Shown piece after piece: positions 1 to 40,514 of a stretch of DNA of 64,000 nucleotides; the stretch's first letter is position 1, and every line of letters starts with the position of its first letter. The translations under genes and the position numbers were made by a program. The notes under the pieces are model-generated. The model ran no database searches, was not told the origin of the DNA, and worked only from the letters and a program-made list of their open reading frames with translations. The DNA lies in the IMG/VR virus record IMGVR_UViG_3300021401_000004, positions 1-64,000 of that record; one strand, 5' to 3'. The stretch comes from a virus.

Positions 1-270
1 ACTGCAAGTTCGCCGACTGCAAGTCCGCCGACTGCAAGTTCGCCGACTGCAAGTCCGCCGACCGCAAGTTCGCCGACTGCAAGTTCGCCGACTGCAAGTT
101 CGCCGACTGCAAGTTCGCCGACTGCAAGTCCGCCGACCGCAAGTCCGCCGACCGCAAGTTCGCCGACCGCAAGTTCGCCGACTGCAAGTCCGCCGACCGC
201 AAGTTCGCCGACTGCAAGTTCGCCGACTGCAAGTCCGCCGACCGCAAGTCCGCCGACTGCAAGTTCGCCC
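1..270. repeat. 15-bp tandem repeat array, 18 units
   Basis: Eighteen 15-bp units of the form ACTGCAAGTTCGCCG, differing by C/T changes at two positions, run without interruption. It is the coding sequence of the pentapeptide repeats on the minus strand. The low divergence between units suggests recent expansion, and copy number may vary or be collapsed in assembly. Confidence 0.95.
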
Positions 271-1346: not shown

Positions 1347-1757
1347 TTACTTGCCACAGCTAACGATAATCTGCCCGAATTCATCCACGGGCCTAATCGT
1401 AGCATCTCCGCCGTTCAAACATGTTACACGGGCTTCGCCGATATCCGTTTTCCGTATCTGATAGACAGTCGGATCGGGCATCCCGTTTCGCTCTGCTTCT
1501 ATTTGGTCAAAAGCGTCCGGCTTAGTTAATACTGGTGTATCTTCGGCCAGCGGCATGCCGATGGTTTCGTGTCCTTGGGCGTCTCTTGTAATCGGGCGAG
1601 CGCCCGCTGGGATGATACGTATCGCCCGAATAATCGAGTTTGACCATTCCAAATACGCCTCGGTTCGCCCGAGTTCATATTGGAGTTTTCGGTATTGCCC
1701 GAACCATATCAAATTTGATATAGCCAATGCCGCTAGAAGCGCCAATTTTGTCTTCAT
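1347..1757 (-). CDS. Membrane-anchored hypothetical protein, 136 aa
   Basis: N-terminal hydrophobic segment (about residues 5-20, KLALLAALAISNLIWF) followed by a soluble region, so a signal-anchor topology. Ribosome site GGAGGA precedes the ATG at 1757. The C-terminal part contains QIRKTDIG, where an exact copy of the dispersed 13-bp element (1444-1456) is translated in frame. Length and topology resemble spanin-like (Rz) phage proteins, but there is no convincing coiled coil, so this is only a possibility. Confidence 0.75.
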   Translation of the reverse strand: MKTKLALLAALAISNLIWFGQYRKLQYELGRTEAYLEWSNSIIRAIRIIPAGARPITRDAQGHETIGMPLAEDTPVLTKPDAFDQIEAERNGMPDPTVYQIRKTDIGEARVTCLNGGDATIRPVDEFGQIIVSCGK

Positions 1758-1769
1758 ATTCTCCTCCGT

Positions 1770-1976
1770 TTACCGACTAGATTCTATCATGCACTCGAAG
1801 CCCGCGAGCCAAATATTTTCAGCCCATGCGGGCGTTTCTGCCTGAAACTTGTCCAATCGCCCGAACCAAAATGCTAAGTCTTCGGGCTTGCTGTGGATCG
1901 TCCGTATTTTCGGGCGTAACAGAATCGCCCGTAATCCGAATGACCGAGTTAGTAAGTCTCTGGTTGGTTGATTCAT
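1770..1976 (-). CDS. Hypothetical protein, 68 aa
   Basis: I place the start at MNQPTRDLL (ATG at 1976) because it overlaps the TGA of the upstream 38-aa gene as ATGA. An upstream GTG at 2003 would overlap more and lacks a ribosome site. A near-copy of the 13-bp element ends exactly at the start codon. No motif recognised. Confidence 0.6.
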   Translation of the reverse strand: MNQPTRDLLTRSFGLRAILLRPKIRTIHSKPEDLAFWFGRLDKFQAETPAWAENIWLAGFECMIESSR

Positions 1977-8721: not shown

Positions 8722-9564
8722 ATGGCCGTTACGATCCGGACAATGGGTGGTTTCGGAAATCAGGCTTTCATGTACGCCTTTTCGCTCGCCCTAAAAGCCC
8801 TCGGGAACGATGTATTTATCGAGCGGTCGTGGTTCGAGCATCAGCCCCAACGGGCTTGGGCGCTCGACAGGTTTAATACCGATTGCCAGTTCGGGCCGAT
8901 TCGCGGGCAATGTGTCCAAGAAGGCAATCTGCGGTTTCACCCGGAATTCCTTAAAAAGTACGAGCAGGATACGACGCTTATCGGCTACTGGCAGAACGAG
9001 AAGTACCTCGCGGGCGTCGAGGAACAAGTTAGAAAAGACCTAACGCTTCGGTACTACCCAAGCAACAAGTCTCTGGCAGTGGCGAATCAGATTCATAACA
9101 CGAATTCTGTGTTCCTGCACGTTCGGAGAACCGACAGCTTGTCCGCGAGCGGTCTGAAGAACCACGGAGTTTGCCCGCAGAGTTATTACCAGCGGGCAGC
9201 GAGTTACATTTCGACCCGAGTTAAAGACCCGCACTTCTTTATCTTCTCGGACGATATCGAGTGGTGCAAGCAGAATATTCAAGTCTTCGGGTATCCGGCG
9301 ACTTTTGTGGATCACAATTCTACGGGCGTAACCGAGTCGCTCGAACACGAAGTACGGAAAACGGATTCGGGCACCGAGCACGAGGACTTGTTTTTAATGT
9401 CCCGCTGCAAACACGCGATCACCGCGAACAGCTCGTTTAGCTGGTGGGGCGCGTGGCTTCAACAGAATCCCGAAAAAATTATTGTGTCCCCGAAACAGTG
9501 GTTTGTTCCCGGCAGTCCGCACGACGGATCGGAAATTGTGCCCGAAAGCTGGATGCGCCTGTGA
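8722..9564 (+). CDS. GT11 family alpha-1,2-fucosyltransferase-like enzyme, 280 aa
   Basis: Family GT11 hallmarks: N-terminal GGFGNQAFMYAFSLAL, central HVRRTD (the HxRRxD nucleotide-sugar site, about residues 133-138) and C-terminal ANSSFSWWGAWL. Family members transfer L-fucose, or a related GDP-sugar, to galactose. The fold appears complete. An exact 13-bp element (9353-9365) is translated as VRKTDSG inside the enzyme, between conserved motifs. With the GDP-mannose epimerase-like gene downstream, GDP-L-galactose is an alternative donor; that is inference. Confidence 0.85.
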   Translation: MAVTIRTMGGFGNQAFMYAFSLALKALGNDVFIERSWFEHQPQRAWALDRFNTDCQFGPIRGQCVQEGNLRFHPEFLKKYEQDTTLIGYWQNEKYLAGVEEQVRKDLTLRYYPSNKSLAVANQIHNTNSVFLHVRRTDSLSASGLKNHGVCPQSYYQRAASYISTRVKDPHFFIFSDDIEWCKQNIQVFGYPATFVDHNSTGVTESLEHEVRKTDSGTEHEDLFLMSRCKHAITANSSFSWWGAWLQQNPEKIIVSPKQWFVPGSPHDGSEIVPESWMRL

Positions 9565-30165: not shown

Positions 30166-30550
30166 CATCAAAGCCGGGAAAGTATTCCATAACGGAGAAT
30201 TCTTTTCTACGGGTTGGTCCGGGCATAATGTTCGGGGCGGAGTTCAAGGGCGCAACAATCCCGCGACTCAGGCTATTAAGGATATTGGATCATTGCCCGT
30301 GGGTAAGTATACAGCGGGCACGGCATACGATAGCCCGAAAACAGGGCCCGTGACGATCCCGTTGTCGCCCAAACCGGGAACAGAAATGTACGGGCGCGAC
30401 GGCATGAAGATTCACGGTTGGCAAATCGGAACGGACCCGAATGATCCGTATAATCCGTCGTCTGACGGGTGCATTCAGCAGGGACGCCCGTATCGGGAAG
30501 CGATCAATTCGTCGCCCGATAAAGATTGGGAAGTAGTTTCGGGCGAGTAG
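30152..30550 (+). CDS. DUF2778-like L,D-transpeptidase-fold protein, 132 aa
   Basis: GWSGHNVRGGVQGRNNPATQAIKDIGSLPVGKYTAG, GPVTIPLSPKPGTEMYGRDGMKIHGWQ and SSDGCIQQGRPYREAI match DUF2778/Tlde1-like proteins, where the His and SxGC Cys are the YkuD-type catalytic residues acting on peptidoglycan. No signal peptide. Its place beside capsid genes is unusual; a virion-borne cell-wall enzyme or endolysin-like role is possible. Confidence 0.75.
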   Translation: MWTFNIKAGKVFHNGEFFSTGWSGHNVRGGVQGRNNPATQAIKDIGSLPVGKYTAGTAYDSPKTGPVTIPLSPKPGTEMYGRDGMKIHGWQIGTDPNDPYNPSSDGCIQQGRPYREAINSSPDKDWEVVSGE

Positions 30551-30590
30551 AGATCACGATTTGTGATCTCAAGTTCATTTTCCGTATAAA
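30550..30590 (+). promoter_or_regulatory. Hairpin and promoter before the capsid operon
   Basis: An 8-bp stem GAGATCAC/GTGATCTC (30550-30570) is followed by TTGTGA, an 18-nt spacer and TATAAA (30561-30590), in which a near-copy of the 13-bp element (TTCATTTTCCGTATAAA) makes up the second half. Probably ends the transpeptidase message and restarts transcription for the capsid. A five-codon reading frame (MTTFK) with a strong AAAGGAGG follows at 30607. Confidence 0.5.
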
Positions 30591-30633
30591 ACAAAGGAGG
30601 CGCACAATGACAACCTTTAAATAGGAGGTCAAA

Positions 30634-30819
30634 ATGCGTACAGAAGAACAGAAGTTCGCGACCAAGCTCCGTAAGGCGGGGGAGCGGGCAAAACATCGCG
30701 AGAGAGTTTTCAAGAAACATCCGCCATCGGTTCGCTATGCGAAGTCGAAGTTCAAAAAAGGAACTAAGCGTCCTCGCAAGAATCGGAAGCCCGTAACTGT
30801 AAAGTTGGGCGTGCAATAA
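30634..30819 (+). CDS. Small, strongly basic protein, 61 aa
   Basis: TAGGAGG ribosome site. Sequence dominated by Lys/Arg (RKAGERAKHRERVFKKHPPS, KFKKGTKRPRKNRKP). Likely binds nucleic acid or acidic capsid parts. Confidence 0.65.
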   Translation: MRTEEQKFATKLRKAGERAKHRERVFKKHPPSVRYAKSKFKKGTKRPRKNRKPVTVKLGVQ

Positions 30820-31056
30820 GAACGCAGTCCTCAAGCCTACTAACAGTGCTGAAATCGAGGTCTATTAAGTCGGGCGGTAGGGCAACTTATCGCCCGCAAA
30901 TTTTGAGTCGAAGGCCGGATTGCCCGAGACTCCCCAATTACGTGAGGGATTCACCTGGAGTTCTCTGACTCCAAGCCCGCAAGCCTATCGGATTATAGGT
31001 TGCCCGCGAGCGTAGTAGAGCAGCTTCGGCTGAACTTGACCTAAACAGGTGAAACT
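30820..31056. other. Structured untranslated region before the capsid start
   Basis: No gene seen. Contains several hairpins: CGGGCG/CGCCCG followed by CAAATTTT (30875-30902), GGAGT/ACTCC near 30958-30973 and AACCTAT/ATAGGCTT-type pairing near 30983-31003. It may control capsid expression. AGGTGA precedes the capsid ATG. Confidence 0.45.
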
Positions 31057-33686
31057 ATGGGCTATAGCCCGAGTTCTAATAACCAGTCAAACCTGCCTCA
31101 GTCCACGGTTCGGTACTACGACAAAAAGTTCCGTTAAATGGTTCTTGCGGAATAGGGTCGAAGCTCGTGTGCCAAGAAACAGGAGAACCTGAAGGCACAG
31201 ACGCCGTTCGTCGCGTGTTCCGAACGTTTGGACCTCCCGATGAAATCTGGTAACCAGTACAACTTGTATCAAACAGGTACCCTCATCGCGTAAGCGATGT
31301 TGAATAACGTGGCTATATCGGGGGATAACTCATTGAGTCAATCCCGAGGGAAGTCTAAGTGACCCCGTAGAGACTACACGCCGCGCCCCGGAAACGGGTG
31401 ATGATATAGTCCGCACTTACGGGCGACCGTAAGAGGTTGGCAGTTATACTTGCCCGCCGCAACAAAATGGATGTATGTTCCCCTCGCGGCCAACACCAGT
31501 CAGACGACTGAAGGAACTGTTGGCGCGGGCGTGAGCGTATCTGTACTGAATACCTCGGCGACAATCGGTGAGTTGATTTGCGGCTCACCATAAACTTGAC
31601 TATATCGGTGGACATCTGCTATAATGGCAGACAATACCGAGCCAAGACTAACCGTTTTACAAGCCTATTAAATAATCCAAAAGGATGGCTAGAATGTCAG
31701 ACAAATCAAAATATTCGTACCTCGCTGGAATTATTGATGGCGAGGGCTGTTTTTGCATCGGAGCTGGACGACGCCAGAAGTGGGGCGTCATCAACTACAA
31801 TCCGCAGATATTGGTTGGCAATACGGACCATAGATTGACTGCGTGGCTGAAGGAAAACTTCGGGGGCGTAACTTTTACGCAACGCCCGAATAACCCGAGA
31901 TGCAAAATTCCGTCTATTTGGCGGTTGTCGAAAAAGAAGGACATGGAACTTCTTATTTTGGCAATCATGCCTTATCTGATAATCAAAAAAGAGCGTGCAA
32001 TTGTCTTCCTAGAATTTCTACGGCTTCCGCCGACAATGAATCCCGAACGTCGGGAAGAGTTGTGGAAACAGTTGTCGATCTTGAATAAACGGGGAGTAGA
32101 CGTAGAGACTAATACGTCAAGCAGTTCGGAAAACGAACTGAAGATAGAGTCCGAACTTACTGGTGACAGTAAGAGTGGCCCTGTGGTGACACAGGAGACG
32201 GCGACGCCCGTAATGACTGCCTAAAAACAGCATTCCCAAAACACAGTTGACGCTGATTACGCTAACTTCTCCAGCCTCAGTCTGGCGACCGCAATCGACA
32301 ACACTGTCGAAAACGTCGCCCGAGAGATGGCCTACCGTCTCGGCGAGTCCCTGTCCGCTTTGGTTCGTGCAACTGCGGACGGCGCGAACTCCGTGGATTC
32401 TTCGGTCCTGACCAAACTGGCCGCGACCTCGACCACGAGCTTCACGACTCTCTCCTTGACCTACATCCGAAACGCCGTGCAGTCACTTGCTGGGCGTTCG
32501 GTTCGCCCGTTTGACGAAGCTTCCAAAAACTTTGCTGGTGTGATCCATTAGGTTGCGGGCAACCGCATAAGGGTGGATATAAAATTCTCTCTGATTGACT
32601 CGAACGCTGAGATGCCAACGAGGGGCAAGTCAATATAGTTCCATAATGGAAACATATTGACAGCCTGAACGACTAAGCGAGAGAACGTTCATGTCGCATG
32701 AACGATGCAATAGTCTGAACAGTACGGAAAATGAACGTACTGAAGTAAGCAGAAATGACTTGCTCGGGCAAATCGCCCGTAACAACTTGCCTTTTGCACT
32801 CGGCGATGTTTTGGCGGACAACTCGAACGATTCGCCAATCGATATCCTGAAGCGTACTCCGCAGGGTTACAGCCGCCTGGATGAAATCATCTCGACGGAC
32901 TTGACCGAAGTCATTGAAATCCCGACTTCCGGCGTAAGCTTCTTCCAGTCAAACTTGGTGACCACCAGCCCGAACTACAATCCGGGAACTGGCGCGGTTA
33001 CGGGCTTGACTGCTCTGCGTACGTATATCTTCGGGCGCGATGGCATTTTCTCCATCAACCTCGGAGCGCAGGGTGACACCGGATACGGTGACGGTGAGTG
33101 GCGGAATATCCGTTTTTCATAATGTTTAGCGGATACAAAATTTCTTCTAATTGACTCGAACCCTGGAATGGCAACGAGGCGCAAGTCCAGAAAACGGACA
33201 GCGTGAGAGACTAAACGAAGAAACGCCTTCGGGCGATGCAATAGTCCGGTCTTCACAGAACAACAAATGTGAAGAGGCAAGCAGAAATGACTTGCCCGTC
33301 GAAAGACGTAACACAGACGTGCAACATCGTGCAAAACGCCGAGCCTTCGGTTGCGGACCCCAGCGGTCTAATTCCGGGGTGGACCAGCTATCGTGTTCAC
33401 TTCACGACCAGCTTGGGTCCGGATACTACAATCCGTATGTCATGGTAAAGTCCTAATGCGGATTCAAAACTCAATCTTATTGACTTGAAACCTGAAATGG
33501 CAACAAGGCGGAACCCTTCGGGGACCGTGAGAGACTAAGCGATTGAGCGCCTTCGGGCGATGCGATAGTCCGAACATACGGAAAACGAACCGTATGAGGT
33601 TGGCAGAAATGACCAATCTCAACAGCTTGTAAGTTGTTGATAACAAGGCGATTAGGGAAATTGACGCGGCCAGCGCAATCAGCTAA
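31057..33686 (+). CDS. Major capsid protein, N4-gp56-like, split into seven exons (349 aa spliced)
   Basis: Exons: 31057-31134, 31183-31269, 31471-31573, 32247-32548, 32790-33113, 33320-33436 and 33648-33686, all joined in frame. The spliced protein reads YYDKKFR|ENLKAQTPF, NQYNLY|MYVPLAANT, SATIGE|FDADYANF, NFAGVIH|PFALGDVL, EWRNIR|CNIVQNAE, PDTTIR|AIREIDAA, matching the spacing of N4-gp56 family capsid proteins (YYD...LP...G...TTEG...). Five gaps are group I introns; the first is a 48-nt gap with in-frame TAA and TAG. The start has AGGTGA upstream. In the unspliced reading no exon is longer than 108 codons. Confidence 0.85.
31135..31182 (+). other. 48-nt stop-containing gap in capsid gene (intron remnant or bypass element)
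   Basis: Interrupts the capsid gene between Arg26 and Glu27. It begins TAA, contains an in-frame TAG and ends in G. The last six exon bases TTCCGT pair with GCGGAA inside the gap (31147-31152) with a terminal U.G, exactly like a group I P1. TTCTTG/CAAGAA could form a stem. A full group I core cannot fit into 48 nt. Its length is divisible by three. Confidence 0.8.
31270..31470 (+). mobile_element. Group I intron 2 of capsid gene, 201 nt
   Basis: Core strings GAGACTACACG and GATATAGTCCG (P7 strands), hairpin CATCGC-GTAA-GCGATG with a GNRA loop, CTTACGG/CCGTAAG and GAGGTTGGCAG near the 3' end; ends in G before exon ATG. P1 is short (GTAT with GTAC), so the 5' site is the least certain of the five, but the joined protein has the right spacing. 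Confidence 0.8.
31596..31625 (+). promoter_or_regulatory. Promoter inside intron 3
   Basis: TTGACT, an 18-nt spacer and a perfect TATAAT, about 70 nt upstream of the LAGLIDADG gene. It would give endonuclease transcripts separate from the capsid message. Confidence 0.65.
31694..32224 (+). CDS. LAGLIDADG homing endonuclease, intron-encoded, 176 aa
   Basis: YLAGIIDGEGCFCIG is a LAGLIDADG helix with the acidic catalytic residue. Only one clear copy is seen, so it probably works as a dimer. Start chosen at MSDKSKYSY (31694), where AAGGATGG gives ribosome-site spacing; ATG 31685 is the alternative. The Ser/Glu/Thr-rich C-terminus overlaps the intron's catalytic core, so it is constrained by RNA structure. 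Its likely target is the intron-less capsid junction GEF. Confidence 0.85.
   Translation: MSDKSKYSYLAGIIDGEGCFCIGAGRRQKWGVINYNPQILVGNTDHRLTAWLKENFGGVTFTQRPNNPRCKIPSIWRLSKKKDMELLILAIMPYLIIKKERAIVFLEFLRLPPTMNPERREELWKQLSILNKRGVDVETNTSSSSENELKIESELTGDSKSGPVVTQETATPVMTA
32549..32789 (+). mobile_element. Group I intron 4 of capsid gene, 241 nt
   Basis: P1: exon ATCCAT with GTGGAT (U.G at the splice site). A GGTTGC/GCAACC hairpin lies in the P1 loop. Core GACTAAGCG and GCAATAGTCTG; ends in G before CCTTTTGCA. A near-copy of the 13-bp element, TACGGAAAATGAAC, forms the loop of a hairpin after P7. Confidence 0.85.
33114..33319 (+). mobile_element. Group I intron 5 of capsid gene, 206 nt
   Basis: P1: exon ATCCGT with GCGGAT. 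Core GAGACTAAACG and GCAATAGTCCG, then GAGGCAAGCAGAAATGAC as in introns 4 and 6; ends in G before TGCAACATC. Close relative of intron 6. Confidence 0.85.
33437..33647 (+). mobile_element. Group I intron 6 of capsid gene, 211 nt
   Basis: P1: exon ATCCGT with GCGGAT, the same target hexamer as intron 5. Core GAGACTAAGCG and GCGATAGTCCG; the hairpin after P7 has the loop ACGGAAAACGAAC, a near-exact copy of the 13-bp element. Ends in G before the last 39-nt exon. Confidence 0.85.
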
Positions 33687-33694
33687 CAAGCTGC

Positions 33695-33723
33695 TTGACA
33701 AACCGCTTCGGTTTTGCTATACT
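33695..33723 (+). promoter_or_regulatory. Promoter before the endonuclease VII-like gene
   Basis: TTGACA, a 17-nt spacer and TATACT, with a CTCCG/CGGAG hairpin in the leader. Directly follows the capsid stop. Confidence 0.75.
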
Positions 33724-33811
33724 GATACTAGCTCCGTGAAATTCGGAGCGACAATTGGAAGGGTCGGGTGCCCAATCACTCGGCCCAACCAGTTCCCTAT
33801 TGGGAGGGAAT

Positions 33812-34525
33812 GTGGACAAAGGAAATATAGTAGGTCAGAGGTACGAGCGGCTCGAAGTCCTGATGCCCGCTTGGATAAACGAAAAACAAAATCAAGTTTG
33901 GTTGTGCGTCTGCGATTGCGGGCAAATTCGGTTTATCACCACTGCCGTTTGGAATGCCCAAAGTCGCAAAAGTTGCGGGTGTTTGCGTCGGGAAGTTTCT
34001 CGCGGGCAAACAACGGCCATGAATCTGGCACGGGCGGGCCAACCGCGATCCGCCAAAGGCAAGATAGCGTCTCAAGCAGCTTGCAAGAAAATGAACGCGG
34101 TGCGGCACTCTCACGCCCGCCACGTTCTGATTAAAGTAGACCCCGAGCGTTTGGTGGGCGAATGTGATGTCTGCGGGGCCGTTCCACTCAAGATAATGAA
34201 GCACCGCGTCGGCAATCAACGCGACCAATATCTATGTTGGGTGGGTTCTTTGCGGGTTCACAACGAATACGCGAATGCGAGAGTCCGTTATCCGAACCAC
34301 GCCTTGGAAATGTTTAACAAACAGGCCAACGCCTGCGCGGTTTGCGACGGGCAGATGATTAGGGGCGATGGTTTGGCAAATGACGGTATGGTTCTAGATC
34401 ACTGCCACACGACGGGCTATATACGCGGGTTTACGCATCAACGATGCAACAAAGGGCTTGCAATGTTTCTTGATCGTCCGGAAGTATTCCGCAAAGCCGC
34501 CGATTACTTGGAAAGAAATCGCTAG
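33812..34525 (+). CDS. Recombination endonuclease VII-like HNH protein, 237 aa
   Basis: GTG start with GGGAGGG. Two-part protein: N-terminal Cys cluster (CVCDCG...KSCGCLRRE), common in phage HNH homing proteins, and C-terminal CAVCDGQ..LANDGMVLDHCHTTGYIRGFTHQRCNKGLAMFLDRPEVFRKAADYL, the endonuclease VII/HNH motif. May be a free-standing homing enzyme beside the capsid gene or a resolvase. I favour homing because of its zinc-finger N-terminus and own promoter. Confidence 0.8.
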   Translation: MDKGNIVGQRYERLEVLMPAWINEKQNQVWLCVCDCGQIRFITTAVWNAQSRKSCGCLRREVSRGQTTAMNLARAGQPRSAKGKIASQAACKKMNAVRHSHARHVLIKVDPERLVGECDVCGAVPLKIMKHRVGNQRDQYLCWVGSLRVHNEYANARVRYPNHALEMFNKQANACAVCDGQMIRGDGLANDGMVLDHCHTTGYIRGFTHQRCNKGLAMFLDRPEVFRKAADYLERNR

Positions 34526-34538
34526 CCCGAGTAATTTT

Positions 34539-34700
34539 ATGAAACGCCTCCTAATCATCGCCCTGATTTTGCTCGCCTTGTTTTGTATCGGGCAACGGGC
34601 GATCATCATCGAATACGAGCACGACATCGATAAACTGCACCAGGAACTCAAGCCATCTGCGGGCGTCGAGAAACCTCCGGCCTGCTTCGACGAAGATTGA
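34539..34700 (+). CDS. Small membrane-anchored protein, 53 aa
   Basis: MKRLLIIALILLALFCIGQRAIIIEYEHDIDKLHQEL: signal-anchor then charged helix. Possibly lysis-related; no clear ribosome site. Followed immediately by the promoter of the RNA locus. Confidence 0.6.
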   Translation: MKRLLIIALILLALFCIGQRAIIIEYEHDIDKLHQELKPSAGVEKPPACFDED

Positions 34701-34701
34701 C

Positions 34702-34730
34702 TTGACAAGGTTTCGGAAGTTTGGTAATCT
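34702..34730 (+). promoter_or_regulatory. Promoter of RNA locus
   Basis: TTGACA, a 17-nt spacer and TAATCT. Begins the 720-nt gene-free stretch that includes the tRNA-like element and the permuted tmRNA. Confidence 0.65.
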
Positions 34731-34913
34731 GTCTTTGGTCGATTATAGGAACGACAAATTACGGGCTAGCTGACACTACCCGCGACAAATCGTTCGTCCT
34801 GTCAGGGAAAACCGGAAGTAATCATAGGAACCTTTCGGGCGACCAATTTGTTTTGTCCGTTTTCTGGACTGGTGGAGGCGGCGAACCTGCTGCCCTAAGC
34901 TTGTGCGGTGGCT
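34731..34913 (+). other. Leader of RNA locus, unassigned
   Basis: No protein gene seen. Contains TGACA/TGTCA pairing (34770-34805) and a variant of the 13-bp element in the orientation TCCGTTTTCTGGA (34857-34869). Could be processed leader of the RNA transcript. Confidence 0.35.
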
Positions 34914-34982
34914 ACGTACGTAGCTCAGACAGAGAGCACTGAGACCATAAATCTCAGGGTCGCAGGGTTAATGCCGTACGAG
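34914..34982 (+). tRNA. tRNA-like element with CAU in the anticodon loop, degenerate T arm
   Basis: D arm is perfect (TAGCTC-AGACAGA-GAGC), the anticodon arm has a six-pair stem CTGAGA/TCTCAG with loop CCATAAA, and CGTACG at both ends can form most of an acceptor stem. But the T arm region (GCAGGGTTAATGC) is several nucleotides short and lacks TTCRA, and the base before CAU is C, not U. Either a decayed tRNA-Met or part of the RNA processing for the neighbouring tmRNA. Confidence 0.4.
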
Positions 34983-34984
34983 GC

Positions 34985-35400
34985 CCGCACAATTAAGTTT
35001 GCTCAGTTGAAGTGCTGTTAAGACGTGCAAGACCGGGCTTCGAAGCCCGCAGGTCCACCAGATCGCCCGTTAAGTCGGTCGGAAAACTTGACTTCGGGTT
35101 TGGCTGCCAATATTTGCAAACTGGTAATGGGCGACGTGACGGGCCTGAAATGGATTCGATTGCGCGGACGAGATAGCATGGATGGGCACGGATGCTGTGG
35201 CCACGTTACGGACACAGAAACAACAACCGCTACGACTAAACCTCGGGCGTTTGCGGCAGCCGCTTAATAAACGGCCCGCACGGAGTCAGCCGGGAACTCT
35301 GGAAAATAATCCCGGCAACTTTTGAATTTGCGGGTAACCCCGACCTGTTGGGTATTAGGCGGCGTACGAGGATGCAACAGGGAACTCCTCACGCAGAAGT
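34985..35400 (+). ncRNA. ssrA: Circularly permuted tmRNA (two-piece type)
   Basis: The acceptor piece comes first: P2 3' strand CGTGCAA (35024-35030), a TTCGAA T arm (CGGGC/GCCCG), acceptor strand CAGGTCC and encoded ACCA ending at 35060. After about 80 nt the coding piece begins with GGGCCTG (35141-35147), which pairs with CAGGTCC over seven positions including the G3.U70 alanine determinant, then AAATGGATTCGAT, the tmRNA D-loop signature, and TTGCGCG, pairing with CGTGCAA as P2. A tag frame ends at TAATAA (35265-35270), giving about DTETTTATTKPRAFAAAA after the charged alanine. Hairpins downstream fit pseudoknots. Outer ends are approximate. Confidence 0.8.
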
Positions 35401-35457
35401 CCTGCCCGTAATAAAAACCGAGGCTCGGAGGCTAAACCTTCGGGCTTCGGGTCCAAT

Positions 35458-35670
35458 ATGAACTTTCCCAAGACAGTTCGAGTCTACGATGCTATTGCGG
35501 GTGATTTTGTGGACAAGAAAGTGCGCTACAGGGAAGAAAAACTAGCTGACGGGCTAGTCTATCGCTCTTGGGTAGTTCCGAGCGACCAATCCGTCGAATA
35601 CATACACAAGAACGGCGGAGTTTACAAACGTATTACGGCGGGCTTCAGTCTTTATACGGAAAACGTATGA
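35458..35670 (+). CDS. Hypothetical protein, 70 aa
   Basis: MNFPKTVRVYDAIAGDFVDKKVRYREE..., beta-rich. The last residues, LYTENV, and the next start are made by the 13-bp element variant TACGGAAAACGTATGA. Function unknown. Confidence 0.55.
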   Translation: MNFPKTVRVYDAIAGDFVDKKVRYREEKLADGLVYRSWVVPSDQSVEYIHKNGGVYKRITAGFSLYTENV

Positions 35671-35810
35671 CCTACCACTCGAAATATCCGCAAACCGAAG
35701 ATACCCAACAGAAGCTTATCAAATGGGGTTGGTGCGACACTCTTGTCCGCCCGCTGTATTGGAAAACCATTTACGAAGATAGGCGAGAGCGCCGTATTCT
35801 TACCACCTAG
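35667..35810 (+). CDS. Hypothetical protein, 47 aa
   Basis: MTYHSKYPQTEDTQQKLIKWGWCD...; overlaps the upstream stop by 4 nt and is followed by TAG plus TACGGAAAACGTATG, which is the start of the next gene. Unknown. Confidence 0.5.
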   Translation: MTYHSKYPQTEDTQQKLIKWGWCDTLVRPLYWKTIYEDRRERRILTT

Positions 35811-35822
35811 TACGGAAAACGT

Positions 35823-36005
35823 ATGGAAGTTTTGATATGGTATAACTCGCCGTACGTTCCAAACGAGCCTGACGTTGTTTTTCTCTTCTCAAGCCCGCAG
35901 CTTGCCCGAAGATTCGTTAGTGATTTAGGCGATGTTCACGCGAGTTCTGTAAACAAATTTAGAGACCCGTTTAAAGCGGGAGTCGTTACGGTTGAAAACG
36001 TATGA
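35823..36005 (+). CDS. Hypothetical protein, 60 aa
   Basis: Starts on the element variant (AACGTATGG). Ends TVENV, again with AACGTATGA overlapping the next start; three consecutive junctions thus share the same short linker. Confidence 0.55.
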   Translation: MEVLIWYNSPYVPNEPDVVFLFSSPQLARRFVSDLGDVHASSVNKFRDPFKAGVVTVENV

Positions 36006-36331
36006 CCTTCGAAGAATGGGCAGATCGGCTTGATCTTAGGGCGGGAGCCTTCGAGCAATTTCCGCCCGCAGGAATCAAAGACCCGTGGCGCTGTGACGGC
36101 CCTTGCAATCAGTTGATGTACGGGCAAGCTCGCGATAATAACTGGAACTACCCATCGCCCGAAGGCGTTCCGACAGGATATTTCTTGTCCGAAGAATACC
36201 CGCGAGTCTGCGACATCTGCTGGACATTATACAGCGTCCTGAAAGACCGAAGTTACTGGACGACCCTGCTCGCAGAACGCAGCAAAGCTTACAAGAAATT
36301 AACCAACGGTGGCAATTATCTCTCAACGTAA
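36002..36331 (+). CDS. Zinc-binding-like hypothetical protein, 109 aa
   Basis: MTFEEWADRLDL...CDGPC...CDIC: two Cys pairs about 45 residues apart. Helical ends. Overlaps the previous stop (ATGA) and the next start (TAATG). Confidence 0.65.
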   Translation: MTFEEWADRLDLRAGAFEQFPPAGIKDPWRCDGPCNQLMYGQARDNNWNYPSPEGVPTGYFLSEEYPRVCDICWTLYSVLKDRSYWTTLLAERSKAYKKLTNGGNYLST

Positions 36332-36546
36332 TGGAAATCAAGACGAATTTCTTCACGAAAGCCACCACAGCGCCCGCGCCGACAATGGCGCAGGTAATGT
36401 TCACGAATGACCCGAAGTATAGGGCGACGTATGGCGGTTGGCTGTACGAGAACTTTGACGAACTTGCCCGAGAATACAAGACTCACGGGCGATTCCTTTC
36501 CTTAGCTGAAATCCAAGACACTGATTCCCCTTTAGACCTTACATAA
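36331..36546 (+). CDS. Hypothetical protein, 71 aa
   Basis: MEIKTNFFTKATTAPAPTMAQVMF..., with a TYGGWLYENFDELAREYKTHGRFLS helical segment. No family recognised. Confidence 0.6.
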   Translation: MEIKTNFFTKATTAPAPTMAQVMFTNDPKYRATYGGWLYENFDELAREYKTHGRFLSLAEIQDTDSPLDLT

Positions 36547-36820
36547 GTTCAAGCTACGGGCAAAAGATGGTCCGGACGATTGGATTATCGCCATCTTAGT
36601 TCGTACGCTTGCCCGCAGAGTCATCCTCTGCACCCCGCGCTTTGTCTGCGGGCAATGAGACAGAAAGAGTCGTCTTAGCGGGCGATTCTACGCCAATTGC
36701 GAGTTGAGGCGGCAGCCAACATACTTGCGACCTCCGAGAACTTGCCCGAGTTCATTTTCCGCACTGCGTCTATAGCGCCGTCCGGACGGAGGTAATTTTC
36801 TAGGACACTAAGGATAAATC
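36547..36820. other. Gene-free region with long inverted repeat
   Basis: No gene seen in 274 nt. A perfect 11-bp inverted repeat TTGCCCGCAGA / TCTGCGGGCAA (36610-36620 and 36646-36656) encloses 25 nt and shares its stem with the terminator at 3000. A near-copy of the 13-bp element (36746-36757) and a palindrome CCGTCCGGACGG lie near the end, before the gene at 36821. Confidence 0.55.
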
Positions 36821-37423
36821 ATGGGAACAGCAGGACGCGCCAAAGCTCCGTGGGAGGATTACGGAGAGAATCTGATGGGCCACGACTCGAAAGAGATGGA
36901 CGCCCTCATACGAAAGTATGCCGAGAATCGCTATGTAACCTCTAGCGCCCAGAATCAAGAAGAGTTGGCTCGGCAGAAGGAAATCAACTACGCGCTCGCG
37001 GCCCAATACCGCTTCCTTGATCCCGCCGACTACGAAGATATCCATGCCCGTATCGGGCAAGTTATGACTTACGAGCAGTTCATCGGAAAGCTCAGGGATG
37101 GCTGCAAGCTGAAATGCTTCTATCGCGAGATGGGGCATCCGCAGATGATCGCTCTTTGGGGCGTAAGAAAAGAAGGCCAGCAGGCGGACGTGATCTCGTG
37201 GTGCCAAAGGCCCGCCATGATTGAGCTAGAAGTACCCCGCTTCGATGACAAGGGCGTTCCTTCGGGATTCCGATATCGGGGTTGGAGAACTTGTCTGATG
37301 GACGCCCGCAGAAAAGGATTCCTTACCGAGGCGCAGATCAAGAAAGTTTTCGGGGAACCAATAGGTCCCGCCGCCCGCACATATTTGAAATTCATGCAAT
37401 CGCTTAGACAAAACTATGAGTAG
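36821..37423 (+). CDS. Conserved-looking phage protein, 200 aa
   Basis: Starts MGTAGRAKAPWEDYGENLMGHDS. Predicted mixed alpha/beta; Trp- and Tyr-rich with VISWCQRPAMIELEVPRFDDKGVPSGFRYRGWRT. Resembles head-completion or tail-assembly proteins by position only. Confidence 0.65.
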   Translation: MGTAGRAKAPWEDYGENLMGHDSKEMDALIRKYAENRYVTSSAQNQEELARQKEINYALAAQYRFLDPADYEDIHARIGQVMTYEQFIGKLRDGCKLKCFYREMGHPQMIALWGVRKEGQQADVISWCQRPAMIELEVPRFDDKGVPSGFRYRGWRTCLMDARRKGFLTEAQIKKVFGEPIGPAARTYLKFMQSLRQNYE

Positions 37424-38947: not shown

Positions 38948-39068
38948 AAGACTTCTAAAACGGCTGATTCTCTGGGCGCTTGACGGCGGGCTTCCGCAGA
39001 TCGTGATTGTACAGAAAACGGATAGCCCGCAAATGATCGACATTCGAGTCCCGAAAGTAAAGCGTTAG
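38940..39068 (+). CDS. Small basic protein, 42 aa
   Basis: MLKRLLKRLILWALDGG... with the element variant translated as VQKTDS. Overlaps the preceding stop by 8 nt. Its stop overlaps the convergent HNH gene. Confidence 0.5.
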   Translation: MLKRLLKRLILWALDGGLPQIVIVQKTDSPQMIDIRVPKVKR

Positions 39069-39556
39069 ATTTGGTTTAGCAAAGCGAAAGGGCCGTGCAG
39101 TTCCGAGGCAGCATCATTATAAGATTTGGCAGCCTCGATTTCCGTTTTGAATCTCCCAAGTTTTCTATTGCGCTTTCCCACCCATATTTGTGCCAGCCAT
39201 CTACCGGACTCCGCATCAAAAGACACGCCTTTAAATCTTGAAGTTGTTTTGCGGGTGGTTTTTCTTCTGTTTCGACAATTTTCCGACCGCGTGCATTTGC
39301 GCAGGTTACTTTTACGACAATCCAATCCGTTATGGTTTATATGGTCTACGTGGGTGTTCGAGTCTGAAACTTTAAGAATGAACCGATGCAGCCCAATCGT
39401 AGCCCGAGTTCCCTTGTTTCGCGGCCCGTGCCTCTGGGCGTAAATAACTCTGCTGTGGGGTTTGATGCACACAAACCAGTTGAATTCCACAACCCGTTCG
39501 TAGTCCTCGTCATCCACTAAAGCTTCGTAGCCACGATTTAGAGGAACTATTTTCAT
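39065..39556 (-). CDS. HNH endonuclease with AP2 DNA-binding domain, 163 aa
   Basis: HNH: IGLHRFIL...HVDHINHNGLDCRKSNLRKCTRSENCRNR, then an AP2 domain SRFKGVSFDAESGRWLAQIWVGKRNRKLGRFKTEIEAAKSYNDAASELHG. A classical homing-endonuclease architecture, encoded leftward among rightward virion genes. It splits what should be adjacent fibre genes: the gene downstream (39612) has lost an ATG start. Leaderless: the -10 ends 7 nt before ATG. Confidence 0.85.
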   Translation of the reverse strand: MKIVPLNRGYEALVDDEDYERVVEFNWFVCIKPHSRVIYAQRHGPRNKGTRATIGLHRFILKVSDSNTHVDHINHNGLDCRKSNLRKCTRSENCRNRRKTTRKTTSRFKGVSFDAESGRWLAQIWVGKRNRKLGRFKTEIEAAKSYNDAASELHGPFALLNQI

Positions 39557-39563
39557 GTGGGAA

Positions 39564-39592
39564 ATTCTATCACATAACTTTTCAACTGTCAA
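39564..39592 (-). promoter_or_regulatory. Leftward promoter of the HNH/AP2 gene
   Basis: On the minus strand TTGACA, 17 nt, TAGAAT. The one leftward singleton promoter without a 13-bp element. Confidence 0.8.
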
Positions 39593-39611
39593 GACGGAGA
39601 GGTAACTCCAA

Positions 39612-39881
39612 CTGTTCCAAAATTTCCCATTTTCGACAGGCCAAGCCACGGTCACGGGCGTTGCCAGCCTGATTGTTGGCGCGAATGCTGCCCGCTCGGG
39701 TATCGTCATCAGCAATACCGACGCCACGAATACCGTGTACTTGATCGAGAATACCTCGGGCACGACTTCCACGGGACATTACTTGCCCGCAGGAGCTAGC
39801 ATTGGATTCTCGACCACGCTCGCTATTTACGGAATTACGAGCGGCCCATCAGTAGTTGTGACTTGGTTGTCCACACAATAA
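39612..39881 (+). CDS. Small tail/fibre protein, CTG start, 89 aa
   Basis: Starting with CTG at 39612, the frame reads LFQNFPFSTGQATVTGVASLIV..., closely parallel to the complete protein at 45597 (MFQNYPFNTSQVSVTAS...). GAGAGG lies about 10 nt upstream. The missing ATG next to the HNH/AP2 gene suggests either a CTG start or damage at insertion. Confidence 0.65.
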   Translation: MFQNFPFSTGQATVTGVASLIVGANAARSGIVISNTDATNTVYLIENTSGTTSTGHYLPAGASIGFSTTLAIYGITSGPSVVVTWLSTQ

Positions 39882-39884
39882 GAC

Positions 39885-40514
39885 ATGTTCTGCGCCTATC
39901 TAGAGCAAAATACGGTCAATGGGAAGTTTTACTCAGGCAAAGGCCCGTGGAAAAAGCGCCGTGCTTCCCGAATCTGGCATGCCCATAATCCACAAGGCCA
40001 TTGGCACAATTCCTTAATCTGTCGGGCATATAGAAAACACGGGTCGGATGCTTTTGCTCTACACACAATCTGTCTATTCGATACGGAAGAAGCGGCTTTT
40101 GAACAAGAGAAGGCTTGGATTCGCGAGCTAGACCTAATGAATCCGGAAAAAGGATACAACCTGACTCTAGGCGGGGAAGGAACTTCTGGGTATGTATACA
40201 CGCCTGAGCATAGGCAAAAACTTTCGACAGCCCACAAAGGCAAGCCCGCCAAAAATCTGTATGCTTTACATTCCCCTGAAAGCAGACGCAAGGCGGGGCT
40301 AGCAATTCGCGGAAGAAAGCAATCTCTCGAAACTGTTGCTAAAAGACGTGCCACCTTTCTAGCTAATGGCGGGAATAAGGGCCGTCCGTCCCATCTTCGA
40401 AAGACTCATTGTTTTAGGGGACATTTGTTGCCCGAAATAATTGCCGTAGGCATTCCTCGACATTGTTTAGAATGCCGTCGTATTTATTACGCAACCAATA
40501 AGGCCTCCCGTTGA
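39885..40514 (+). CDS. GIY-YIG homing endonuclease 4, 209 aa
   Basis: FCAYLEQNTVNGKFYSGKG (variant GIY-YIG), YNLTLGGEGTSG, NUMOD3-like EHRQKLSTAHKGKPAK and ESRRKAGLAIRGRK, then a C-terminal CFRGH...CLECRR zinc knuckle. Stops overlapping the next TTG start; free-standing between fibre genes. Confidence 0.85.
   Translation: MFCAYLEQNTVNGKFYSGKGPWKKRRASRIWHAHNPQGHWHNSLICRAYRKHGSDAFALHTICLFDTEEAAFEQEKAWIRELDLMNPEKGYNLTLGGEGTSGYVYTPEHRQKLSTAHKGKPAKNLYALHSPESRRKAGLAIRGRKQSLETVAKRRATFLANGGNKGRPSHLRKTHCFRGHLLPEIIAVGIPRHCLECRRIYYATNKASR

Follow-up and report, generated by a model that had tools for sequence, protein, structure and literature searches.

The window, comprising the first 64,000 nucleotides of a viral contig 92,960 bases long (IMG/VR record IMGVR_UViG_3300021401_000004), contains a genuine phage-encoded, circularly permuted (two-piece) tmRNA gene. 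Positions 35000-35267 on the plus strand matched the Rfam model tmRNA_permuted (RF04321) with 65.8 bits, where the gathering threshold is 47, and the E-values of 1.9e-10 within the window and 6.5e-14 on the whole record indicate that the match is not due to chance. The copy in a second genome, G001 (IMGVR_UViG_3300050821_004371), scored 68.5 bits. The preliminary description, made from the letters of the window, had claimed a permuted tmRNA on a phage and had named covariance models and ARAGORN as checks; the claim was borne out by the permuted model, and ARAGORN called neither this gene nor any tRNA in the 92,960-base record. The beta-type model RF01850 reached 39.7 bits of the required 84, with the tRNA-like part alone, and the alpha-type model RF01849 (cut-off 50 bits) gave no match up to E = 1 in positions 30500-37000 after overlap resolution. 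With these two results, and a nearest cultured relative that infects Acidobacteriota, the hint at host lineage has to be revised.

Genomic context and parts of the gene

In G001 the sequences from the two ends of the record adjoin each other, indicating that the phage record is near-complete. A 15-base tandem repeat runs across the circular join (window 1-270 and record end 92799-92959) and is common to G001. The tmRNA gene sits among late structural genes, directly downstream of an intron-interrupted capsid gene, and no match to a sigma70-like promoter or a terminator was obtained near it.

The major capsid gene, a homologue of gp6 of Tunturiibacter phage Tunturi_3, is split into exons within 31057-33683 (31057-31134, 31183 to about 31275, about 31468 to 31572, 32252-32548, 32790-33113, 33320-33453, and 33651-33683), with some five group I introns between them. 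One intron matched RF00028 at 31260-31433 with 51.4 bits, weaker matches to the same model were located at 31963-32173 and 32527-32736, and a LAGLIDADG open reading frame (31685-32224) lies in one of the capsid introns. In addition, capsid residues R26 and E27 are separated by 48 nt of inserted sequence that includes two in-frame stops (31135-31182 in the window, about 1587-1634 in L002, the G001 locus); at the same point L008 carries a frame-breaking insert of 46 nt (about 8892-8937), and L012 has no insert. Each of the two inserts (48 and 46 nt) follows a U, has G as its last nucleotide and includes GCGGAA, a complement of the UUCCGU that ends the upstream exon. This pairing resembles P1 of group I introns, but neither insert is nearly long enough to contain a catalytic core. 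Homing-type endonucleases of the AP2/HNH_3, NUMOD3 and endonuclease VII-like types are encoded around the structural genes, at 39065-39772 (minus strand), 39885-40514 (plus strand) and 33755-34525 (plus strand).

The tmRNA gene itself lies on the plus strand and has the arrangement that the preliminary description had read from it, which placed an acceptor piece ending in CCA at 35060 upstream of a coding piece starting at 35141, with a 7-bp acceptor pairing containing G3.U70, P2 between TTGCGCG and CGTGCAA, and a tag frame ending AFAAAA before TAATAA; each of these elements was found. The acceptor piece (34991-35060) holds the P2 3' strand, the T arm, the acceptor 3' strand and the encoded CCA, as indicated by the RF04321 alignment, the block conserved with L002 and the co-fold with the coding piece, and its probable 5' end (34991) was placed where the block conserved with L002 starts. 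Direct sequence and folds pair the P2 3' strand CGTGCAA (35024-35030) with 35160-35166, and in the folds P2 extends upstream of 35024, with internal loops, to about 35000. The T arm (35034-35049) reads CGGGC-UUCGAA-GCCCG, with a 6-nt loop at 35039-35044 and C53-G61 in place of G53-C61, an assignment drawn from the sequence, RF04321 and double changes relative to Tunturi_3 and the clade. It is followed by the acceptor 3' strand CAGGTCC (35050-35056) with ACCA (35057-35060), also aligned by RF04321, which forms 7/7 pairs, G3.U70 included, with the acceptor 5' strand GGGCCTG (35141-35147).

Between the two pieces lies an intervening segment of 80 nt (35061-35140), predicted to be removed, whose outer stem is formed by UCGCCCGUUA (35063-35072) and UAAUGGGCGA (35125-35134). 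In the coding piece, the RF04321 alignment places the D-analogue loop AAAUGGAUUCGA and the first part of the P2 5' strand, TTGCGCG (35160-35166), within 35148-35166; the remaining P2 5' strand, the PK1 region and an A-rich stretch before the resume codon occupy 35167-35228 and match L002 to about 35220. The tag frame (35229-35267), GCT ACG ACT AAA CCT CGG GCG TTT GCG GCA GCC GCT TAA, encodes ATTKPRAFAAAA and closes with tandem stops (TAA TAA, 35265-35270). Its putative resume codon was set by the RF04321 alignment and agrees with the ARAGORN call ATTEKPKAFAAAA in the relative L415. After the tag, a hairpin GCCGGG/CCCGGC (35289-35316), recognized by folds and by comparison with L002 and Tunturi_3, occupies the place of the hairpin with a CCUxGxAACAGAA loop of L002, Tunturi_3 and other permuted tmRNAs, its loop having diverged in the window. 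The co-fold of the acceptor and coding pieces was modestly better than shuffles, 22 of 300 of which were equally good.

Two further structures flank the gene. The sequence 34905-34990 is similar to a Met/Ile tRNA but has neither a proper T loop nor the GG of the D loop. Its fold is strong (z -4.3), yet it gave no match to RF00005 and is absent from L002; it is probably a tRNA relic. A 14-bp hairpin CCGAGGCUCGGAGG/CCUUCGGGCUUCGG at 35417-35450 (z -4.0), just upstream of the ATG at 35458, is present once in the window, and its 5' half is conserved in L002.

Covariation, T loop and tags

Comparison with related phages confirmed the acceptor and T-stem pairing through compensatory changes. Sixteen distinct clade copies, all of shared ancestry, allowed both acceptor strands to be located. 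Among them, all four kinds of Watson-Crick pair are represented at each of acceptor pairs 4, 5 and 6, G1-C72, G2-C71, G3.U70 and G7-C66 are invariant (16/16), T-stem pairs 1 and 2 show three pair types each, and pairing is maintained throughout. These copies had been pre-filtered for at least 6/7 acceptor and 5/5 T-stem pairs, so that constant pairing is partly built in, but the diversity of pair types is not. Between the window and Tunturi_3, double compensatory changes occur at acceptor pair 5 and at T-stem pairs 4 and 5. The window and L002 are identical from about 34991 to 35220 save for two changes, both within the intervening segment, one of which converts a G.U to a G-C pair in its outer stem (35128). 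After about 35220 the tag parts diverge abruptly, and both keep an open frame ending AxAAAA before the stop, the L002 tag being AKPLAMAAAA and that of the window ATTKPRAFAAAA.

The T loop had been described as seemingly one nucleotide short, and the 6-nt UUCGAA at 35039-35044 is repeated in an identical T arm in G001. Sequencing error was rejected as the simplest reading of the short loop on this ground, though a single metagenome is the source of both G001 and L025, which is nearly identical to it. Against the usual 5-bp stem and 7-nt UUCRANN loop, the window has a complete stem (5/5) and a loop of 6 nt. A pattern survey of viral permuted tmRNAs, which is a sample rather than a census, gave at least 268 matches, at least 186 of them distinct. 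Among the matches listed, all 186 distinct copies had 7/7 acceptor and 5/5 T-stem pairs, the T stem not being required by the pattern; 179 had a 7-nt T loop, with G53-C61 in 178 of them, and only seven had a 6-nt loop, each with C53-G61 or U53-A61. The flipped 53-61 pair in 7/7 short-loop copies among the matches listed indicates that loop shortening and the flip of the closing pair are coupled, in several unrelated lineages, and five viral lineages other than that of the window have the short loop among these matches. Outside viruses, a permuted tmRNA of the 6-nt form was found in a single genome (L327) out of 385 from a bacterial class that has permuted tmRNA. Two standard tmRNAs of the Candidate Phyla Radiation, from Candidatus Ryanbacteria and Kaiserbacteria, have UUCGAA with G53-C61 kept, which shows that the coupling is not absolute. 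The idea that a 6-nt T loop is unique was rejected in view of these recurrences, and membership of the window copy in RF04321 was kept since a 7-nt T loop is common yet not strictly required.

The tags of the clade differ at their ends. The window tag ends in -AAAA and lacks the usual -LAA; among the matches listed, ARAGORN gave tags for 169 viral permuted tmRNAs, and 135 of these tags had the -LAA end. The -AAAA end is shared by L002 and L415, -AAAGR occurs in L416, L420, L424 and L425, and -LVMA in L412, L417 and L418; further ends are -PVLA, -LATA, -ASA and -LLAA/-MLAA. Some clade members thus retain -LAA, including Tunturi_3, whose tag ends in -MLAA (...SRKVRVAQFATMLAA). Clade tags range from 10 to about 36 amino acids, and the other viral permuted tags called by ARAGORN among the matches listed mostly have 10, 13 or 14; long tags also occur in other phages, and length alone is therefore not special to the clade. 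The terminal G-R is encoded by GGT CGG TAG in three genomes and by GGA CGC TAA in L420, and its maintenance through different codons indicates selection on the tag peptide. The -AAAGR tags should be poor ClpXP substrates, because the ClpX determinant is a free C-terminal Ala-Ala after Leu.

The phage clade and known two-piece tmRNAs

According to the large terminase, the portal and a 1256-aa structural protein, the closest annotated phage is Tunturi_3 (PP885686), a phage of 97.6 kb from Finland with an Acidobacteriota host. The portal is 52% identical and the capsid exons are 74-92% identical between the two phages, and no close DNA relatives of the window phage were found among annotated phages. 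Tunturi_3 has its own permuted tmRNA at 88172-88396 on the complement strand (RF04321, 63.3 bits), for which there is no annotation in PP885686 and no mention of tmRNA in the phage's paper. The kinship with Tunturi_3 suggests that the host of the window phage is probably, though not certainly, an acidobacterium. Acidobacteriota lie outside the three classical lineages with permuted tmRNA, namely Alphaproteobacteria, Betaproteobacteria and Cyanobacteria, and a literature search for the form of the acidobacterial host tmRNA returned nothing.

Relatives were then picked by capsid protein alone, and all records with a length of at least about 58 kb were searched. A permuted tmRNA over the cut-off was present in 17 of 21 new long clade records (20 of 24 counting the three known ones). 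Four long records gave no match, nor did shorter records more closely related to the window phage, the 68-kb G006 among them, and thus the tmRNA is not strictly essential in the clade. ARAGORN called 10 of the 20 clade copies and missed both the window and Tunturi_3 copies, which implies that standard annotation misses such genes and that counts of phage tmRNAs are too low. A tmRNA-like sequence in L194 (the second half of G010; 61 bits) was left out of the counts, having an intervening segment of only about 10 nt and an odd D region. In L412 (about 1550-1780, minus strand), the intervening segment is 219 nt long and contains several T-arm-like GGTTCGANNCC motifs, which are possibly tRNA remnants. 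Tunturi_3 gp125 (L047 32469-32807, PP885686) is annotated as a short release factor with an RF-1 domain and, judged by its size, could be an ArfB-like rescue factor, in which case the clade may carry two ribosome-rescue devices.

The window gene shares with the bacterial two-piece tmRNAs of RF04321 the permuted order, the G3.U70 acceptor stem, the encoded CCA, the D-loop, P2, the tag frame and the intervening segment, but differs from them in its 6-nt T loop with C53-G61 and its -AAAA end, and it scores below the alpha and beta subtype cut-offs. The family is derived from the 2025 tmRNA database, which holds 79 bacteriophage sequences (PMC11915505). Complete two-piece tmRNA genes have been reported on Methylophilales phage Melnitz, Pelagibacter phage Mosig and other mostly marine or aquatic phages, with 53 two-piece genes suggested by ARAGORN among phage genomes (PMC9004378). 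The window gene is likewise a complete two-piece gene on a phage, whereas its clade consists of soil-type phages related to an Acidobacteriota phage, and ARAGORN misses half of the clade's copies; in contrast to Melnitz/Mosig-type phages, no match to a glutamine riboswitch was obtained at the window locus. The Tunturi_3 gene is similar in its permuted form, its G3.U70 and its intervening hairpin, but has a canonical 7-nt T loop, the -MLAA end and another genome position, adjoining tRNA genes. Mycobacteriophage DS6A also produces an RNA with the tRNA-like domain of tmRNA, which has no tag frame and is not permuted, whereas the window copy keeps its tag. Phage two-piece tmRNAs were therefore already published; new here are the soil/Acidobacteriota clade, most of whose long records contain the gene, its tag ends, and the repeated occurrence of a compact T loop.

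Proposed function and alternatives

The locus is probably a functional ssrA gene of the phage, circularly permuted, which most likely performs trans-translation with host SmpB and AlaRS. The shortened T loop with its flipped pair 53-61, the modest co-fold, the lack of a promoter or terminator match nearby and the relatives that gave no tmRNA match weigh against this reading. The form of the gene, its pairing, its conservation in the clade, its open tag frame and the absence of a phage SmpB are features of the sequence itself. No SmpB was found in the genome of the window phage (G000) or in G001, and host SmpB must be assumed as the partner. The course from transcription through processing and charging to activity, and the consequence of the tag, can be predicted as follows. 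A single precursor would be transcribed from 34990 to beyond 35316, and host tRNA-processing enzymes would cut it at the CCA (35060) and before the G at 35141. The 80-nt intervening hairpin would be discarded, and pairing in the acceptor stem and in the long P2 would keep the acceptor and coding pieces together. The RNA would be charged by host AlaRS via G3.U70 and, with host SmpB and EF-Tu, would enter ribosomes that stall during infection on messages that are broken or have no stop codon, where ATTKPRAFAAAA would be added, ending at UAA, so that ribosome recycling would be maintained for the phage. That unspliced or broken capsid messages are the reason for a rescue RNA is only a thought.

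Clade tags without the usual -LAA, some of them ending in -GR, suggest that the main benefit is probably ribosome rescue, the tagged protein being disposed of more slowly or differently. A role in which the tmRNA mainly directs tagged proteins of the host or the phage to a particular end, such as stabilisation or another protease, rather than serving general rescue, is quite improbable. The non-canonical ends -AAAA, -AAAGR, -LVMA and -PVLA would fit it, given that most other viral permuted tmRNAs have -LAA (135/169 among the matches listed); against this, -LAA is kept in some clade members, including Tunturi_3. The tRNA-like part could instead titrate host SmpB or AlaRS as a decoy and so inhibit host trans-translation, for which the tag-less tRNA-like-domain RNA of DS6A offers a precedent (PMC4131195, PMC11915505). 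The tRNA-like part is indeed much better conserved than the tag part, and the T-loop variant could alter handling, but relatives retain an open tag frame and stop despite divergence, with the tag C-terminus kept through synonymous codons, and DS6A lost its tag while the clade of the window has tags of 10 to about 36 amino acids; such a decoy is considered unlikely.

It is very improbable that the gene is a relic without function, whether acquired from a host or remaining from integration into ssrA. The window phage and G001 do encode a tyrosine recombinase, and the degenerate tRNA-like relic (34905-34990) lies immediately upstream, but the gene is complete, is far from the recombinase (35 kb versus 89 kb), preserves its pairing through compensatory changes and is present in most long relatives. 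An attachment-site remnant was rejected on the completeness of the gene and its distance from the recombinase.

In a more far-reaching and tentative extension of the preferred reading, ribosome rescue by a functional tmRNA, this clade of Acidobacteriota phages may have adopted a permuted tmRNA near-universally and re-engineered its tag (ends -AAAA, -AAAGR, -LVMA and -PVLA, up to about 36 amino acids) to escape -LAA-dependent proteolysis in the host. This would constitute a virus-specific branch of trans-translation that frees ribosomes or diverts truncated proteins to a different fate, and that is marked by a recurrent compact T loop (6 nt and a flipped pair 53-61). A phage group with a cultured member thus keeps a tmRNA while altering the part that marks proteins for destruction. 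With the gene kept, the tag changed and a cultured member available, a laboratory phage-host pair, Tunturi_3 with Tunturiibacter psychrotolerans, can be used to ask whether the phage tmRNA serves ribosomes, proteolysis or neither.
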